This document shows, piece by piece, positions 8,237 through 23,848 of a stretch of 32,582 bases of DNA (its first letter is position 1; each line of letters opens with the position of its first letter). The notes under the pieces are model-generated. The model was not told the DNA's origin, did no database searches, and worked only from the letters and a program-made list of their open reading frames with translations. The translations under genes were made by a program, and so were the position numbers. Origin of the DNA: Thermoleophilia bacterium (lineage in GTDB: Bacteria > Actinomycetota > Thermoleophilia > Gaiellales > Gaiellaceae); contig JAICNY010000008.1 of assembly GCA_025930955.1 (NCBI GenBank), positions 1 to 32,582 of the forward strand. Reading direction: 5' to 3'.

Positions 8237-8506
8237 ATGGCTCTGACGAAGGACAAGAAGCAGGAGGTCGTGGGAACGTACGGCCGAAGCGACGCCGACA
8301 CGGGCTCGCCGGAGGTGCAGATCGCGCTCCTCACACGCCGGATCGAGGAGCTCACCGAGCACCTCCGGACGCACAAGAAGGATCACCATTCGCGCCGCGG
8401 GCTCCTGAAGCTCGTCGGTCAGCGGCGGCGGCTCCTGAACTACCTTCAGAAGAGGAACCTCGAGGGCTACCGCACGTTGATCAAGGAACTAGGCCTGCGC
8501 CGCTAA
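8237..8506 (+). CDS. rpsO: 30S ribosomal protein S15
   Basis: [70 protein letters not shown]. Confidence 0.99.
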
Positions 8507-8518
8507 TAAGGGCGCGCA

Positions 8519-8600
8519 GGCGTCCGGGAGACGCCGGTGGAAGTTTGAGGGAGCTCCTCCGACGGGAGTTGGCTCAAACCTCCGCCTCGTCTCCCGGGTG
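8519..8600 (+). promoter_or_regulatory. Long structured hairpin in the rpsO-pnp spacer / pnp leader (candidate processing or autoregulatory site)
   Basis: 8521-8533 pairs with 8588-8600 (core CCGGGAGACG/CGTCTCCCGG), 8536-8541 with 8581-8586, GTTTGAG 8543-8549 with CTCAAAC 8573-8579; no U-tract; pnp SD (gaggagg) follows. Confidence 0.75.
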
Positions 8601-8614
8601 AGAGAGGAGGCACG

Positions 8615-11089
8615 ATGGAAACGACGCTTGCCCCGTCCGTGGCGGATGTCACGGTCACGATCGGCGACGCCGAGATCTCGTTCGAGACAGGCCGCCTGGC
8701 GAAGCAGGCCGACGGCGCTGTGCTCGTCCGCTCGGGCGACACGATGGTCCTCGCGACCGCGCAGGGACGGCCGGAGGCGCGCGAGGGCGCCGACTTCTTC
8801 CCGCTCACCGTGGACGTCGAGGAGCGGATGTACGCCGCCGGGAAGATCCCGGGCGGCTTCTTCAAGCGCGAGGGGCGCCCGACCGAGAAGGCGATCCTCA
8901 CCGCGCGGATGATCGACCGCCCGATCCGGCCGCTCTGGCCGAAGGGCTTCCGGAACGAGGTGCAGGTCATCTGCACCGTCCTCTCGGCCGACCTCGTGAC
9001 GCCGCACGACATCCTCTGCCTGAACGGCGCGTCGGCGGCGCTCATGCTCTCGCCGCTCCCGTTCGCGGGGCCGGTCGGCGCGGTGCGCGTCGGCCTCTCC
9101 GAGGGCCGGCTCGTCGTCAACCCGTCCCTGCCCGACCTCGAGGCCGAGAGCGACCTCGACCTCATCGTCGTCGGCACGAAGGAGGGCCTCACGATGGTCG
9201 AGGCGGGCGCCAACCGGGTCGCCGAGGACACGCTCCTCGACGCGCTCGAGCTCGCGCACGAGGAGATCAGGAAGCTCTGCGCCGTCCAGGAGGACCTCCG
9301 CGAGCGCGCCGGCAAGGCCAAGTGGCTCGACCCGGCCACGACGGCCGAGATCGAGGAGCAGCACGCCGGGCGCATCCGCGAGCGGATCCAGTCGGCCGGC
9401 CTCCGCGAGGCGGCGGCCGCGTCCGAGCAGATCCAGGCCGAGCTCGCCCCGCCGATCACGATGGACTCGGGCGAGGAGGAGGCGATCCGCGGCCTCCAGG
9501 TGAAGATGAGCCTCTCGCTCGTCCTCGAGCGCGAGCGCCTCGAGGCCGTGAAGGGCCCGGTGCGCGACCAGTTCGAGACCGAGCTGCGCGGCCTCACCGA
9601 CGCCGAGCAGGACTCGAAGCAGCTCAAGTCCGCGAAGCGCCAGCTCCTCTTCGACCGGATCGTCGAGACCGTGGAGCTGCCGTTCCCGGCCGGCGCCCCC
9701 GTCGAGGGCGACGGGCCGGCGCTCAAGGACCCGCTCACGAAGCAGTTCGTGAAGAAGGCCGCCGAGGCGATCTACAAGGAGCTTGTCCGGACGAAGATCG
9801 CGGTCGACAAGCGCCGCCCCGACGGGCGCGGCGCCGAGGAGATCCGCTCGATCACGTGCGACGTCGGCGTCTCGCCGCGCACGCACGGCTCCGGGCTCTT
9901 CACCCGCGGCCAGACGCAGATCATGTCGCTCCTCACGCTCGGCACCGCGAAGGAGGGGCAGCGGATCGACGACCTCTCCCTCGAGGAGGAGCGCCGCTAC
10001 ATGCACCACTACAACTTCCCGCCCTACTCGGTCGGGGAGACCGGGTTCATGCGCGGCCCGAAGCGGCGCGACATCGGCCACGGCGCGCTCGCGCAGCGGG
10101 CGCTCGAGCCGGTCATCCCGGGGCCGGAGGAGTTCCCGTACACGATCCGGATCGTCTCCGAGACGCTCGAGTCGAACGGCTCGTCGTCGATGGGCTCGGT
10201 CTGCGGCTCGACGCTCGCGCTCATGGACGCGGGCGTCCCGATCGCGGAGCCGGTCAGCGGCATCGCGATGGGCCTCGTGAAGGAGGGTGACGACTACGTC
10301 ATCCTCACCGACATCCAGGGCGCGGAGGACCACCTGGGCGACATGGACTTCAAGGTCGCCGGCACGCGGGACGGGATCACCGCGCTCCAGATGGACATCA
10401 AGATCACCGGCGTCACGCAGGAGATCATGCGCTCCGCGCTCGAGCAGGCGAAGCGGGCCCGCGTGGCGATCATGGACTCGATGCTCGAGGCGATCCCCGA
10501 GGCGCGCACCGAGCTCGCCGCGCACGCCCCGCGCATCTCGACCATGCAGATCGACCCCGACCAGATCGGGCTCGTGATCGGCAAGGGCGGCGAGACGATC
10601 CGCTCGCTCGAGTCGGACTACGACGTCCAGATCGACATCGAGGAGGACGGCACGCTCCTCATCTACGCCACGGAGGGGACGAAGGCCGACGAGGCGATGG
10701 GCGCGATCAAGGCGCTCACGAAGGAGCCGGAGCCCGGCGACGAGTACACGGGGAAGGTCGTGAAGACGACCGACTTCGGCGCGTTCGTCGAGCTGAAGAA
10801 GGGCACCGACGGGCTCCTGCACGTCTCGAACGTCGGCCCGGGCCGCGTCGCGCACATCGAGGACGTGATCTCGCGCGGCGACGTCCTCGACGTGAAGGTG
10901 CTCGAGGTCGACAAGCAGCGGGGCCGGATCGGCCTCAAGCTCGTCGCGAAGCACGAGAACGGCGACCTCGTCCAGCCGGAGACGCTGATCGAGCGCGCGA
11001 AGGACGCGCCCCCGCGCGAGCGGGAGGAGCGCCCGCCGCGCGACCGGGAGCGCGGCGGCCGGGGCGGCCGCGGCCGCGACCGGCGCTAG
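8615..11089 (+). CDS. pnp: Polyribonucleotide nucleotidyltransferase (PNPase)
   Basis: Two RNase PH-like domains, KH (DQIGLVIGKGGETIRSL) and S1 domain (GDEYTGKVVKTTDFGAFVEL); Arg/Gly-rich C-terminal tail; adjacent to rpsO. Confidence 0.99.
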   Translation: METTLAPSVADVTVTIGDAEISFETGRLAKQADGAVLVRSGDTMVLATAQGRPEAREGADFFPLTVDVEERMYAAGKIPGGFFKREGRPTEKAILTARMIDRPIRPLWPKGFRNEVQVICTVLSADLVTPHDILCLNGASAALMLSPLPFAGPVGAVRVGLSEGRLVVNPSLPDLEAESDLDLIVVGTKEGLTMVEAGANRVAEDTLLDALELAHEEIRKLCAVQEDLRERAGKAKWLDPATTAEIEEQHAGRIRERIQSAGLREAAAASEQIQAELAPPITMDSGEEEAIRGLQVKMSLSLVLERERLEAVKGPVRDQFETELRGLTDAEQDSKQLKSAKRQLLFDRIVETVELPFPAGAPVEGDGPALKDPLTKQFVKKAAEAIYKELVRTKIAVDKRRPDGRGAEEIRSITCDVGVSPRTHGSGLFTRGQTQIMSLLTLGTAKEGQRIDDLSLEEERRYMHHYNFPPYSVGETGFMRGPKRRDIGHGALAQRALEPVIPGPEEFPYTIRIVSETLESNGSSSMGSVCGSTLALMDAGVPIAEPVSGIAMGLVKEGDDYVILTDIQGAEDHLGDMDFKVAGTRDGITALQMDIKITGVTQEIMRSALEQAKRARVAIMDSMLEAIPEARTELAAHAPRISTMQIDPDQIGLVIGKGGETIRSLESDYDVQIDIEEDGTLLIYATEGTKADEAMGAIKALTKEPEPGDEYTGKVVKTTDFGAFVELKKGTDGLLHVSNVGPGRVAHIEDVISRGDVLDVKVLEVDKQRGRIGLKLVAKHENGDLVQPETLIERAKDAPPREREERPPRDRERGGRGGRGRDRR

Positions 11090-13960: not shown

Positions 13961-14605
13961 GTGAAGGTCGCGCTCTTCGGCGCGTCCGGGAAGGTCGGCG
14001 CCGTCCTCGCGCCGCGCCTGCGTGACGCCGGCCACCACGTGACGCCGGTCGAGCGCGGGGAGGAGCCCGAGCTCGCCGGCCACGACGCCGCCGTCGACTT
14101 CACCAGGCCGGACGCCGTGCGCGCGAACGTCGAGCGGGCGCTCGGCGCCGGCGTCCCTGCGCTCGTCGGCACGACGGGCCTCCGTGAGGACGACCTCGCG
14201 GCGCTCGACGCGCTCGCGCGCGAGCAGGCGATCGCCTGCCTCGTCGTGCCGAACTTCGCGCTCGGTGCCGTCCTCATGATGCGCTTCGCAGCGGAGGCCG
14301 CACGCTCCCTCCCGCGGGCCGAGATCGTCGAGCTTCACAACGAGCGCAAGGTCGACGCGCCGTCCGGCACGGCGAAAGCGACCGCGGCCGCGATGGGCGG
14401 CGAGGTCCCGATCCACAGCGTGCGGCTTCCCGGCCTCGTCGCGCACCAGGAAGTCCTCCTCGCCGGCGACGGCGAGCTCCTGACGATCCGCCACGACACG
14501 CTGTCCCGTGAGGCGTTCGTCCCGGGCGTGCTCCGCGCGCTCGACCACCTGCGCGACCTCCCGCCCGGCGTGACGGTCGGCCTCGACGCGGTGCTCCCGG
14601 CATGA
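13961..14605 (+). CDS. dapB: 4-hydroxy-tetrahydrodipicolinate reductase
   Basis: MKVALFGASGKVG (nucleotide-binding), VGTTGL, ELHNERKVDAPSGTA; adjacent to dapA. Confidence 0.92.
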   Translation: MKVALFGASGKVGAVLAPRLRDAGHHVTPVERGEEPELAGHDAAVDFTRPDAVRANVERALGAGVPALVGTTGLREDDLAALDALAREQAIACLVVPNFALGAVLMMRFAAEAARSLPRAEIVELHNERKVDAPSGTAKATAAAMGGEVPIHSVRLPGLVAHQEVLLAGDGELLTIRHDTLSREAFVPGVLRALDHLRDLPPGVTVGLDAVLPA

Positions 14606-16188: not shown

Positions 16189-17841
16189 ATGTCCTGGACA
16201 CGGATCATCCCGCTCGGCGGGCTCGGCGAGGTCGGCAAGAACATGACGGTCGTCGAGAGCGAGGGCGGCATCGTCGTGATCGACGCGGGCCTCTCGTTCC
16301 CACGCGACGAGCATCTCGGCGTCGACCTCATCCTCCCGGACTTCGGGCCGCTCGAGGACCGGCGCGACGAGATCCGGGCCGTGATCCTGACGCACGGCCA
16401 CGAAGACCACGTGGGCGCGCTCCCGTACTTCCTCCGTGAGGTCGGCGCGCCGGCGATCCACGCCACGAAGCTCACGCTCGGGCTCGTGAAGGCGAAGCTC
16501 GACGAGCACGGGCTCGGGAACGCCGCCGACCTCGTCGAGGCCGAGCCGGAGGCGGATCCCGTGCAGATCGGGCCGTTCCGCGTGCAGTTCGTCCGGATGG
16601 CGCACTCGATCCCGGACTCCGTCGCGGTCGTCCTGGACACGCCCGGCGGGCGCATCGTGCACACGGGCGACTACAAGATCGACCACACGCCGGTCGACGG
16701 CTTCCGCACGGACGTCGGGAAGCTCGCGTCGCTCGGGAACGAGGGCGTCGACCTCCTGCTCGGCGACTCGACGAACGCCGAGCGGCCGGGCGTCACGAAG
16801 TCGGAGCGCACGGTCGGTGAGGCGTTCCGCCAGATCATCCCGCCGCTCGAGGGGCGTGTCCTCATCGCGTCCTTCGCGTCGAACGTCCACCGCGTGCAGC
16901 AGGCGATCGACGTCGCGCTCGAGACGGGGCGGAAGGTGTGCCTCATCGGCCGCTCGCTGCGCAAGAACGTCAACATCGCGCGCTCGCTCGGCTACGTCCG
17001 CGTGCCCGACGACCTGCTCGTGAAGCCGAACGTGCTCGCCGAGCTCCGACCGGAGGAGACGATGATCCTCTGCACTGGGAGCCAGGGCGAGCCGATGTCC
17101 GCGCTCACCCGGATCGCGTTCCGCGACCACCAGCACGTCGAGATCCAGGAGGGCGACACGGTCATCCTCTCCGCGAAGCCGGTGCCGGGGAACGAGCTGC
17201 GCGTCCACGACACGATCAACCGGCTCGCCAAGGGCGGCGCGACCGTCCTGCACGAGGAGATCGCGCCGGTGCACACGTCCGGGCACGGGAACGCGGAGGA
17301 GCTCAGGACGATCCTCGCGCTGCTCCGGCCGCGCAACGTCATGCCGGTGCACGGGGAGTTCCGCATGCTCGCGGCACACGCGCGGCTCGCGCGCGAGGCG
17401 GGGATCCCCGAGGACAGGATCGTGCTCGCGGAGAACGGCTCCGTCGTCGAGCTGCGCGGCGGGATCATCCGGCTCGTGGACACGCTGGACGTCGGCTCGA
17501 CGTTCGTGGACGGGCTCGGCGTCGGCGACGTGCGCGACGTCGCGCTTCGCGACCGGCGGCACCTGTCGGAGGACGGCGTCCTGATCGTCGTCGTGACCGT
17601 CGGGAGCGAGAACGGCCGGCGGGCCGCCGCGCCCGAGGTGATCGCGCGCGGATTCTCGGAGCCGGGGCCGCTCTTCGACGAGGCGCGCGAGGAGGTCGAG
17701 CGAACGGTCACCGAGCTCTTGGCGCAGGACATCGAGGAGCTGAAGCTCCTGCAGGAGCACGTCCACGACGCGGTCGGCAAGCTCGTCTACGAGCGCACGC
17801 GGCGTCGGCCGATGATCCTGCCCGTCGTCGTCGAGGTCTGA
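16189..17841 (+). CDS. rnj: Ribonuclease J (metallo-beta-lactamase/beta-CASP)
   Basis: LTHGHEDHVGALPYFL, HTGDYKIDHTPVDG, LLGDSTNAERPG, PVHGEFRML; follows dapA. Confidence 0.95.
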   Translation: MSWTRIIPLGGLGEVGKNMTVVESEGGIVVIDAGLSFPRDEHLGVDLILPDFGPLEDRRDEIRAVILTHGHEDHVGALPYFLREVGAPAIHATKLTLGLVKAKLDEHGLGNAADLVEAEPEADPVQIGPFRVQFVRMAHSIPDSVAVVLDTPGGRIVHTGDYKIDHTPVDGFRTDVGKLASLGNEGVDLLLGDSTNAERPGVTKSERTVGEAFRQIIPPLEGRVLIASFASNVHRVQQAIDVALETGRKVCLIGRSLRKNVNIARSLGYVRVPDDLLVKPNVLAELRPEETMILCTGSQGEPMSALTRIAFRDHQHVEIQEGDTVILSAKPVPGNELRVHDTINRLAKGGATVLHEEIAPVHTSGHGNAEELRTILALLRPRNVMPVHGEFRMLAAHARLAREAGIPEDRIVLAENGSVVELRGGIIRLVDTLDVGSTFVDGLGVGDVRDVALRDRRHLSEDGVLIVVVTVGSENGRRAAAPEVIARGFSEPGPLFDEAREEVERTVTELLAQDIEELKLLQEHVHDAVGKLVYERTRRRPMILPVVVEV

Positions 17842-19785: not shown

Positions 19786-20634
19786 GTGGCCGGGCCGTCC
19801 GTCATCGTCGTCGGAAGCTGCAACCTCGACCTCGTCGCGTTCTGCGAGCGGCTGCCGAGACCGGGGGAGACCCTCACGGCGAGCGACTTCGAGCGCGTCC
19901 CGGGCGGGAAGGGCGCGAACCAGGCGGTCGCGGCGGCGCGGCTCGGCGCCTACGTCCGCTTCGTCGGCTGCATCGGGAACGACGAGCACGGACGCCTGGC
20001 GACGGCCGGGCTCGAGGAGGCGGGCGTCGACCTGAGCGGCCTGCGGCGCGTCGACGACGAGCCGACCGGGCTCGCGCTCATCGTGGTCTCCGAGGGCGGC
20101 GACAACCAGATCGTCGTCGTCCCTGGGGCGAACCGCCGCCTCGACGCGGCGGACGCCGACGCGACCGGGGCCGACGCCGTGCTGACCCAGCTCGAGATCC
20201 CGCTCGAGGCTGTGGCCCGCGCGACGGAGACGTCCACCGGGCTCACGGCGCTGAACGCGGCGCCGGCGCGCGACGTCCCGCCCGAGACGCTCGCCCGCTG
20301 CGACCTGATCGTCGCCAACAGCTTCGAGCTCGACGCGCTCGGCTCGAGCCCGCTCGGGCCGCTCTTCGCCCTCACGCTCGGCGCCGACGGCGCGCTCCTC
20401 CTCGAAGGTGGGGAGGAGGTCGCCCGCGCGACCCCGCCGAGCGTCACCGCCGTGGACGGCACCGCGGCCGGCGACGCGTTCACCGCCTGCCTTGTCGTCT
20501 CGCTCGCCGAGGGCCGGCCGCGTGACGAGGCGCTCGAGCGCGCGTGCGCCGCCGGCGCGATCGCGGCGTCCCGTCCCGGCGCGCAACCCTCCCTGCCCAC
20601 CGCCGCCGAAGTGGACGCGATACTGGCCGCGTGA
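19786..20634 (+). CDS. rbsK: Ribokinase / PfkB family carbohydrate kinase
   Basis: VVGSCNLDLVAFCERLPRPGETL, PGGKGANQAVAAARLG, VDGTAAGDAFTACLV. Confidence 0.9.
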   Translation: MAGPSVIVVGSCNLDLVAFCERLPRPGETLTASDFERVPGGKGANQAVAAARLGAYVRFVGCIGNDEHGRLATAGLEEAGVDLSGLRRVDDEPTGLALIVVSEGGDNQIVVVPGANRRLDAADADATGADAVLTQLEIPLEAVARATETSTGLTALNAAPARDVPPETLARCDLIVANSFELDALGSSPLGPLFALTLGADGALLLEGGEEVARATPPSVTAVDGTAAGDAFTACLVVSLAEGRPRDEALERACAAGAIAASRPGAQPSLPTAAEVDAILAA

Positions 20635-21569
20635 GCACCGCGCCTACACCGATCATTCTCGACTGCGATCCGGGGCACGACGACGCGATCGCGCTCCTGC
20701 TCGCGCTCGCGAGCCCCGAGGTGGAGCTTCTCGGCGTGACGACCGTCGCCGGGAACCAGACGCTCGCGAAGACGACAGCGAACGCTCTTCGCACGCTCGA
20801 GCACGTCGAACGGGCGGAGATCCCCGTCGCGGCCGGCGCCGAGCGGCCGCTCGTGCGCGCACAGCACGCCGCTCCCGAGGTGCACGGGGAGACAGGGCTC
20901 GACGGCCCCGACCTCCCGCCGGCGCGCGGACGGCCGCTCGACGTCCACGCCGTCGACTTCATCGCCGAGCGCCTCGCCGCGTTCGACCGCCCGGTCACCC
21001 TCGTCCCCGTCGGCCCGCTGACGAACATCGGCCTCCTGCTCGCGCGCCACCGGGAGGCCGCGGAGCGGATCGAGCGCATCGTCCTCATGGGCGGCGCGAT
21101 CGCCGAGGGGAACGTGACGCCGGCCGCGGAGTTCAACGTCTGGGCCGACCCGGAGGCCGCGCAGCGCGTCTTCTCGAGCGGGCTCGACGTGACGATGGTC
21201 GGCCTCGACGTGACGCACGCGGCGCTCCTCATGCCGGACCGCGTCGAGGAGCTCCGCGCCGCCGGCCGCGCGGGGCGCTTCGTCGCCGAGCTCTTCGACT
21301 TCTTCCATCGCTTCCACGAGCAGATCTACGGCTTCGCCGGTTCGCCGATCCACGACGCGGTCGCGGTCGCCGAGGTCATCCGTCCGGGGATCGTCCGCAC
21401 CGAGCACCGCCACGTCGAGATCGACTGCGCGTCCGAGCTCTGCCGCGGCCGCACGGTCGTCGACCTCTGGCGCCGGACGGGCCAGGAGCCGAACGCGCGC
21501 GTCGGCGTCGGGATCGACGCGGACGCGTTCGTCGAACTGCTCGTCGAGCGCATCTCGTCGCTCGGCTGA
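20631..21569 (+). CDS. Inosine/uridine-preferring nucleoside hydrolase family protein
   Basis: IILDCDPGHDDAIALLLALASPEVELLGVTTVAGNQT; MGGAI, EFNVWADPEAA; GTGA overlap with ribokinase. Confidence 0.94.
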   Translation: MSTAPTPIILDCDPGHDDAIALLLALASPEVELLGVTTVAGNQTLAKTTANALRTLEHVERAEIPVAAGAERPLVRAQHAAPEVHGETGLDGPDLPPARGRPLDVHAVDFIAERLAAFDRPVTLVPVGPLTNIGLLLARHREAAERIERIVLMGGAIAEGNVTPAAEFNVWADPEAAQRVFSSGLDVTMVGLDVTHAALLMPDRVEELRAAGRAGRFVAELFDFFHRFHEQIYGFAGSPIHDAVAVAEVIRPGIVRTEHRHVEIDCASELCRGRTVVDLWRRTGQEPNARVGVGIDADAFVELLVERISSLG

Positions 21570-21610
21570 GTCGGGCAGGAGCGGCGCTCCGCCGCGCGAA
21601 TAGCGCCTGC

Positions 21611-23848
21611 ATGGGCCGGAAGAAGACGCCCGCGAAGACGCGTCCCCGCTCGCCGGCGCGCGTGAAGACGAAGCGGAAGCAGCGGCGGGCAAAGGGCACC
21701 GCGCATCCCGAGCTCGTAGGGCTCGGGCTGCTCGCGCTCGGGCTCTTCCTCGGGACCGTCCTCCTCGCCGGCTGGGACGGCGGCGAGGTGGGCGAGCGGG
21801 TAGACGCCTGGCTCGACGCAGCGATCGGCGGCGCCCGCATCGCGCTCCCGCCGTTCCTCGTCGCCGTCGGCGGGCTCATGGTCGCCCGCTCGGAGCTCGT
21901 CGACGTCCGTCCGTTCCGGACCGGGATCGCGATCTTCTCCGTCGGCCTCCTCGTCCTGCTCGGGGACGAGCGAGGCGGCGCGCTCGGAGGCCTCTCCGAC
22001 GCCGTCTTCGGCCGCCTGCTCGGTGCGACGGGGGCGTTCCTGCTCGGCGCCTTCCTCCTCTCCGCCGGGATCCTCCTCCTCACGGGGGCGTCCGTCGGCG
22101 CGCTCCTGCGGCGCTCGGCGGTGGCCGCCCGCGCCGCGCACGACCGCGCCCGCGAGGCGCGCCGCGCCGCGATCGAGGCCGCGGCGGCGAACCGCCCGCC
22201 CGCGCCGTTCGCCCCCGAGCCCGCCGGCCCGCCCGTCGACGGCGAGAAGTCCTTCCCCGACGTGGTGCGCGACGAGGAGGCGCTCGCGCTCGCCCCGGCG
22301 CTCGTCGACCAGCTCGCGCACGAGGAGCCGGAGGCGCTCGACGATCTCGACGAGCCGAGCGAGCCGTCGCTCTTCCCGGACGACCGGCCGCCGCTCGAGC
22401 ACGCGGACTACCGCCTGCCGGACCCGTCGCTCCTCCGCAAGTCCCGCCCGTCCGACGGCCAGCCCGCGAAGGCGACCGAGCGCACCGCGGAGGCCCTCGT
22501 CACCGCGCTCGCGAGCCACGGCGTCGAGGCGACCGTGATCGGCCAGGTCTCGGGGCCCCGCGTCACGCGCTACGAGCTCCAGCTCGCGCCCGGGACGAAG
22601 GTCGGCAAGGTCTCGAACCTGAAGGACGACCTCGCGTACGCGCTCGCCACGACGGAGATCCGCATCCTCGCGCCGATCCCGGGCAAGCAGGCGGTCGGCG
22701 TCGAGGTCCCGAACCTCGCGCCGAACATCGTGACGCTCGGCGACATCTTCGACACGATGCCGGCGAACGCGAGCCCGGTCAGCGTCTGGCTCGGCAAGGA
22801 CATCTCGGGCGCGTCCGTGTGGGCCGACCTCGCGCGCATGCCGCACCTCCTGATCGCCGGGACGACCGGCTCGGGGAAGAGCGGCTGCCTGAACACGATG
22901 CTCGTCTCCGTCCTCCTGCGCGCGACGCCGGACGAGGTGAGGATGATCCTCGTCGACCCGAAGCGCGTCGAGCTCGGGCTCTACGAATCGATCCCGCACC
23001 TGCTCACGCCCGTCGTCTCGAGCCCCAAGGCGGCCGCGGCCGTCCTCGCGAACGTCCTCACGGAGATGGAGCGCCGCTACGAGCGCATGTCGATCGCCCG
23101 CGCGCGCAACCTCTCCGAGCTGAACAGGGTCCTCCGCGAGCGTGGCGAGGCGCCCCTCCCGTACCTCATGGTCGTGATCGACGAGCTCGCCGACCTCATG
23201 ATGGTCTCGCCGCAGGAGGTCGAGGACGCGGTCATCCGGCTCGCGCAGAAGAGCCGCGCCGTCGGGATCCACCTCGTGCTCGCGACGCAGCGGCCGTCGG
23301 TCGACGTCATCACCGGGATGATCAAGGCCAACGTCCCGAGCCGGATCGCGTTCGCCGTCTCGTCGCAGACGGACAGCCGCGTGATCCTCGACACGTCCGG
23401 CGCGGAGAGCCTCCTCGGGCAGGGCGACATGCTCTTCAAGCCGCTCGGCACGTCGCGGCTCCAGCGCGTCCAGGGCGCGTACGTCTCGGACGAGGAGATC
23501 GCGCTCGTCGTCGAGGCCTGCCGCGGCCAGCGGGAGCAGGAGCTCGACGAAACGCTCCTCGAGGCGCCCGGCGTCCAGGTGACCGAGGGCGACGAGGAGG
23601 GCGACTTCGACCCGGACGAGGACCCGCTCCTCGAGCGCGCGATCGAGATCGTCGTGCAGACGCAGACCGCCTCAGTCTCGCTCCTCCAGCGGCGGCTGCG
23701 CGTCGGCTACACGCGCGCCGGACGGCTGATCGACATGCTCGAGCGGCGCGGGATCATCTCCGGCTACGAGGGCTCGAAGCCCCGCCGCGTGCTCGTCGGC
23801 GAGGCCGAGCTCGAGCACGCGCTGGCCGGTCATCCGTCCGAAGCCTGA
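21611..23848 (+). CDS. ftsK: DNA translocase FtsK/SpoIIIE
   Basis: Hydrophobic N-terminus, Walker A LLIAGTTGSGKSGCLNTM, MVVIDELADLMM, HLVLATQRPSVDVITGMIKANVPSRIAF, C-terminal winged-helix gamma-domain. Confidence 0.97.
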   Translation: MGRKKTPAKTRPRSPARVKTKRKQRRAKGTAHPELVGLGLLALGLFLGTVLLAGWDGGEVGERVDAWLDAAIGGARIALPPFLVAVGGLMVARSELVDVRPFRTGIAIFSVGLLVLLGDERGGALGGLSDAVFGRLLGATGAFLLGAFLLSAGILLLTGASVGALLRRSAVAARAAHDRAREARRAAIEAAAANRPPAPFAPEPAGPPVDGEKSFPDVVRDEEALALAPALVDQLAHEEPEALDDLDEPSEPSLFPDDRPPLEHADYRLPDPSLLRKSRPSDGQPAKATERTAEALVTALASHGVEATVIGQVSGPRVTRYELQLAPGTKVGKVSNLKDDLAYALATTEIRILAPIPGKQAVGVEVPNLAPNIVTLGDIFDTMPANASPVSVWLGKDISGASVWADLARMPHLLIAGTTGSGKSGCLNTMLVSVLLRATPDEVRMILVDPKRVELGLYESIPHLLTPVVSSPKAAAAVLANVLTEMERRYERMSIARARNLSELNRVLRERGEAPLPYLMVVIDELADLMMVSPQEVEDAVIRLAQKSRAVGIHLVLATQRPSVDVITGMIKANVPSRIAFAVSSQTDSRVILDTSGAESLLGQGDMLFKPLGTSRLQRVQGAYVSDEEIALVVEACRGQREQELDETLLEAPGVQVTEGDEEGDFDPDEDPLLERAIEIVVQTQTASVSLLQRRLRVGYTRAGRLIDMLERRGIISGYEGSKPRRVLVGEAELEHALAGHPSEA

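Follow-up and report, generated by a model that had tools for sequence, protein, structure and literature searches.

The rpsO-pnp Locus and Its Intergenic Hairpin

The analyzed stretch of DNA, in the following called the window, comprises 32,582 nucleotides from the 2.72 Mb genome of a Thermoleophilia bacterium of the family Gaiellaceae. The gene rpsO, coding for ribosomal protein S15 (Pfam PF00312, E = 5.5e-37), is located on its forward strand at 8237-8506 with the stop codon TAA at 8504-8506. It is followed after a spacer of 108 bases by the gene pnp (8615-11089, forward strand), which encodes a polynucleotide phosphorylase (PNPase) with the full set of PNPase domains in Pfam, namely two RNase PH domains, a KH and an S1 domain. 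An RNase III with a dsRNA-binding domain is encoded as a single copy in the same genome, which accordingly carries both enzymes of an RNase III/PNPase-controlled leader, the PNPase with its KH and S1 domains. Furthermore, a gene encoding RNase J with beta-CASP, RMMBL and C-terminal domains was found a few genes downstream of pnp (16189-17841, forward strand), with dapB (13961-14605) and ftsK (20408-23848) in its vicinity.

The spacer contains a long imperfect duplex, as is known from pnp leaders processed by RNase III. Three stacked stems had been described here in the initial annotation, and all of them pair as described. The outer stem (8521-8533/8588-8600, forward strand as all following features) has 13 pairs including two G-U pairs; its inner part, 8526-8533 with 8588-8595, and the extension to 8521/8600 are based on the minimum free energy fold and on covariation in the family. 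A 2x1 loop separates it from the second stem GGTGGA (8536-8541/8581-8586), which includes one U-G pair and belongs to the conserved core of the family alignment. This stem is followed by a single A.C mismatch (A8542 and C8580, placed by the family alignment) and by the core stem, a perfect 7 bp duplex of GTTTGAG (8543-8549) and CTCAAAC (8573-8579), and then by a 2x2 internal loop with GG (8550-8551) opposite GG (8571-8572). The hairpin is completed by an apical stem-loop (8552-8570, stem 8552-8558/8564-8570), which was missing from the initial annotation and differs in sequence and length among the relatives. The duplex comprises 24 pairs in about 27 layers and is therefore long enough for RNase III. 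The region 8500-8630 folds at -62.4 kcal/mol (z = -3.1), and none of 200 shuffled sequences was as stable.

Conservation and Covariation of the Hairpin

The initial annotation had proposed to look for covariation in related rpsO-pnp spacers, and the hairpin was indeed found to be conserved and strongly covarying. In 103 genomes of the family of the window, whose members are uncultured actinobacteria, an rpsO match was obtained in 93, one of these partial, and the spacer up to pnp could be extracted at 87 loci. The hairpin is present in all 87 readable spacers, which represent 33 genera. Covariation statistics were calculated for 24 pairs in an alignment of 58 leaders. Of the alignment cells, 92.5% are paired (shuffles: 84.4%), changes on both sides occur at 15 pairs and in 108 cells compared to 31 in shuffles, and the covariation score is 0.309, whereas shuffles reach 0.168 and slid versions of the alignment 0.101 at most. 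The hairpin, its covariation and its family-wide conservation are direct observations, and it is a real, exceptional element.

In the same 58 leaders the duplex is also conserved in sequence, namely in the motifs GUUUGAG and GGUGG. The core stem (columns 25-31/74-80) is almost invariant, with some double changes. The A.C mismatch is found at the alignment pair of the window (columns 24/81) in 31 leaders and one pair further outward in 15 more, adding up to 46 of 58. At the inner pair of the 2x2 loop (columns 33/72), 48 of 58 leaders share a conserved G.G mismatch. Conserved stem sequence and mismatches exceed the needs of a plain RNase III duplex, which suggests that something recognizes the hairpin. 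The G.G and A.C mismatches suggest a specific protein contact or the placement of a nuclease cut.

A strong GC-rich hairpin between two genes could also be a transcription terminator or an attenuator acting between rpsO and pnp. However, the stem in the window is followed by GGGTGAGAG, so that the U-tract of an intrinsic terminator is lacking, as the initial annotation had stated, and neither the conserved stem sequence nor the mismatches are necessary for termination, which makes this explanation very improbable. Just as little can be said for an operator through which ribosomal protein S15 controls its own synthesis. The hairpin adjoins rpsO, and a protein could attach to its conserved non-Watson-Crick motifs, but it lies downstream of rpsO and beside the Shine-Dalgarno (SD) sequence of pnp, and the predicted fold of the leader has no three-way junction.

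In several leaders (L167, L176, L185, L189, L190, L194, and L041) an extra palindrome, GCCAGACTGAAGTCTGGC or variants of it, was identified between rpsO and the hairpin. Its exact pattern has only 0-3 copies in each of six genomes and possibly represents a small dispersed repeat.

Distribution and Relation to Known RNA Families

A covariance model detected the element in 92 of the 103 family genomes with one locus per genome. The remaining 11 consist of the ten genomes in which no rpsO was found and the one with the partial rpsO match. Model matches on the minus strand overlapping the main one are an effect of the near-palindrome and do not represent a second element. Among 296 other genomes of the class no match was obtained, and in a sample of 397 genomes of the phylum only its four family members matched. 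Large genome surveys were filtered more strictly, so that remote forms could be missed there. Elsewhere in the order and class, the families differ in their spacers, and several of these spacers contain shorter hairpins. In three leaders from other families of the class (L234, L237, and L248) the spacers are about 280-345 bases long and contain several strong hairpins unlike the family element; these are possibly separate leader types.

The Rfam database gave nothing at the gathering threshold in the window nor in eight scanned relatives of the family. Eukaryotic miRNA families appeared at E >= 0.4, which was attributed to chance matching of the long hairpin. The pnp leader that has been described in Actinomycetales is Actino-pnp (RF01688; PMC2864571), and the family hairpin has the same position upstream of pnp in Actinobacteria. 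However, RF01688 did not match the window at its gathering threshold (47.7 bits), nor the region 8400-8700 at E <= 10, whereas six actinobacterial loci used as positive controls matched at 58-70 bits, and matches were obtained in Streptomyces, Amycolatopsis and others. The sequence family is new, as is the predicted closing of the SD described below; hairpins for the control of pnp are a known kind.

Alternative Folds and Accessibility of the Shine-Dalgarno Sequence

The initial annotation had suggested a two-state element, with a local hairpin GGCGTC-CGGGA-GACGCC at 8519-8535 competing for the 5′ strand. This hairpin exists exactly as described and has -9.0 kcal/mol alone; the whole leader becomes less stable by 6.5 kcal/mol when this hairpin is imposed on it (-64.1 compared to -70.6 kcal/mol). 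The freed strand CGTCTCC, which was expected to become available next to the SD, pairs with the SD side in the forced fold. The 8519-8535 hairpin itself is limited to a clade, and local stems in the 5′ half vary irregularly between 2 and 9 bp across the family. A similar local 5′ stem together with an SD hairpin was found in the near relatives L034, L036, L045, L051, and L188, for which the SD-closed fold was computed to be equal or better.

The competing fold that is conserved across the family is instead built by the 3′ strand of the hairpin, which is complementary both to the SD and to the flank upstream of it. In the window this predicted anti-SD strand lies at 8573-8595 and the SD region GAGAGGAGGC at 8602-8611, with the SD GGAGG at 8606-8610. 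Both in the fold of the tail that would remain after processing and in the forced fold, the segment 8584-8593 forms the predicted alternative hairpin, in which 8584-8588 pairs with 8607-8611 and 8590-8593 with 8602-8605 and which would represent the OFF state.

The accessibility of the SD was assessed for different processing states by computed energies, and the results below are such energies and correlational tests. Across the family, the median cost of opening the SD is 3.2 kcal/mol in the intact leader, 2.7 kcal/mol after a cut with the 5′ strand still annealed, and 9.6 kcal/mol when the 5′ strand is gone. The effect is smaller in the window itself, where the computed cost rises from 0.3 kcal/mol in the intact to 3.8 kcal/mol in the processed leader and the open probability falls from 0.62 to 0.002; the cut state with annealed 5′ strand is modelled there at 4.3 kcal/mol, which is not below the processed state. 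Closing of the SD upon processing is rare at other rpsO-pnp loci, with 16% of a control set that includes four family members, compared to 87% in the family.

In the uncut RNA the long hairpin and the SD-closed fold differ by a median computed gap of 1.7 kcal/mol in 82 leaders, and because of these close energies the leader might also switch by conformation alone, with no cleavage involved. The leader would then change between the long hairpin with free SD and a three-hairpin fold with closed SD, biased by a protein (PNPase through KH and S1, or S15) or by temperature. It was also described that PNPase of E. coli represses its own mRNA through binding without digestion (PMC10362022). The selection on the SD flank described in the following shows up in the processed tail alone, however, and the intact leader behaves like its swapped controls, which renders a switch of this type unlikely.

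Co-evolution of the 3′ Strand and the SD

The motif GTGGAGG, a near copy of the hairpin 5′ strand GGTGGAAG, forms the SD context in 49 of the 87 pnp leaders. In a pattern count in eight family genomes it was found at 78 of 1175 GGAGGA-N(3-8)-ATG sites, which corresponds to a background of about 7%. Co-evolution was analyzed with one sequence per genus in 33 genera. Duplexes of the cognate 3′ strand and SD have an advantage of 1.3 kcal/mol over permuted ones (mean z -4.3), compared to a mean z of -1.2 for control regions in the pnp gene start and the upstream spacer. With an SD block taken from another genus, the SD of the processed tail became easier to open in 27 of 33 genera (p = 2e-4); the same was seen in 26 of 33 when only the SD flank was shuffled (p = 5e-4), whereas in the intact leader the swap of the SD block had no effect on the opening cost in these genera (p = 0.8). 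Swapped SDs in the processed tail still cost 7.4 kcal/mol to open, so the SD GGAGG and the stem CCUCC are partly complementary whatever the cause. The complementarity of the 3′ strand and the SD is observed to co-evolve between genera by these computed energies, with the genera being non-independent samples whose kinship is controlled solely through the control regions. By correlation, the leaders thus have the mutually exclusive strand/SD pairing, conserved together with covariation, that is expected of a two-state leader.

These results also bear on the simplest explanation, a plain processing or stability site at which an RNase III cut destabilizes the mRNA and the 3′-strand/SD complementarity has no regulatory role. 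Position, length and internal loops of the hairpin match such a site, and the complementarity of SD and CCUCC is trivial. In S. coelicolor, RNase III cuts on both sides of the internal loop of the hairpin, and the lack of RNase III raises PNPase activity 2-4-fold (PMC10126417). Against it stand the advantage of the cognate duplexes, the restriction of SD closing to the processed tail and the excess of GTGGAGG in pnp leaders over background sites, so that a plain processing site seems doubtful, but clearly less so than the cleavage-free switch.

Proposed Regulation of pnp

Cleavage of the rpsO-pnp hairpin by RNase III lowers PNPase in both E. coli and S. coelicolor (PMC10126417, PMC8708148). 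In E. coli, the released short strand, which protects the pnp mRNA, is then digested by PNPase, and the mRNA becomes accessible to RNase E (PMC10362022). The initial annotation had suggested an analogue of the E. coli system. Position, length, internal loops, conservation and the presence of both enzymes in the genome agree with this; cleavage by RNase III, digestion by PNPase, the effect on translation and the switching are inferred. With slightly better than even chances, the element is an RNase III/PNPase autoregulatory leader of pnp, in which the 3′ strand would cover the SD after removal of the 5′ strand by PNPase.

During transcription the long hairpin would form first and leave the SD of pnp free (ON). 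RNase III would then cleave the duplex at a site probably close to the 2x2 internal loop, and the SD would stay free as long as the cut 5′ strand is annealed. If PNPase is plentiful, it may digest the 5′ strand from the new 3′ end, and the freed 3′ strand would pair with the SD region and block the translation of pnp (OFF), a state which might also expose the mRNA to decay. This way, PNPase would exert a negative feedback on its own translation. A more specific version, which is put forward tentatively and with somewhat less than even chances, is a switch of this family that is read by an exonuclease: the 5′ strand would serve as a disposable anti-anti-SD, PNPase would sense its own abundance by digesting it, and the 3′ strand would then close the SD.

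Comparison With Known Leaders

With the element in this family, a new and strongly covarying RNA family joins the known pnp leaders, and it gives a testable account of how translation could be switched off by digesting a single strand of the hairpin. Like Actino-pnp, which is found in the same phylum and place, it consists of one hairpin in which a 1x1 mismatch and a symmetric internal loop lie between the outer and the apical stem. The conserved sequence differs, and the mismatch and the inner loop are separated by 5 bp in Actino-pnp and by 7 bp in the family hairpin. The S. coelicolor leader likewise consists of an intergenic hairpin with an internal loop in the same operon layout, but cleavage is known there and only assumed for the family hairpin.

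The E. coli leader shares the intergenic place and the long duplex with internal loops directly before pnp, but no common sequence family was found. Whereas digestion of the strand exposes the mRNA to RNase E in E. coli, the freed 3′ strand of the family leader is predicted to cover the SD. In this respect it resembles leader switches with anti-SD and anti-anti-SD, in which an upstream strand and the SD are alternative partners of the same strand; there the upstream strand is displaced by a ligand, whereas in the family leader it would be removed by the product of the gene itself. The hairpins that occupy this intergenic place in Gammaproteobacteria, in Actinomycetales and in this family are unrelated, which suggests that one control logic has evolved repeatedly.
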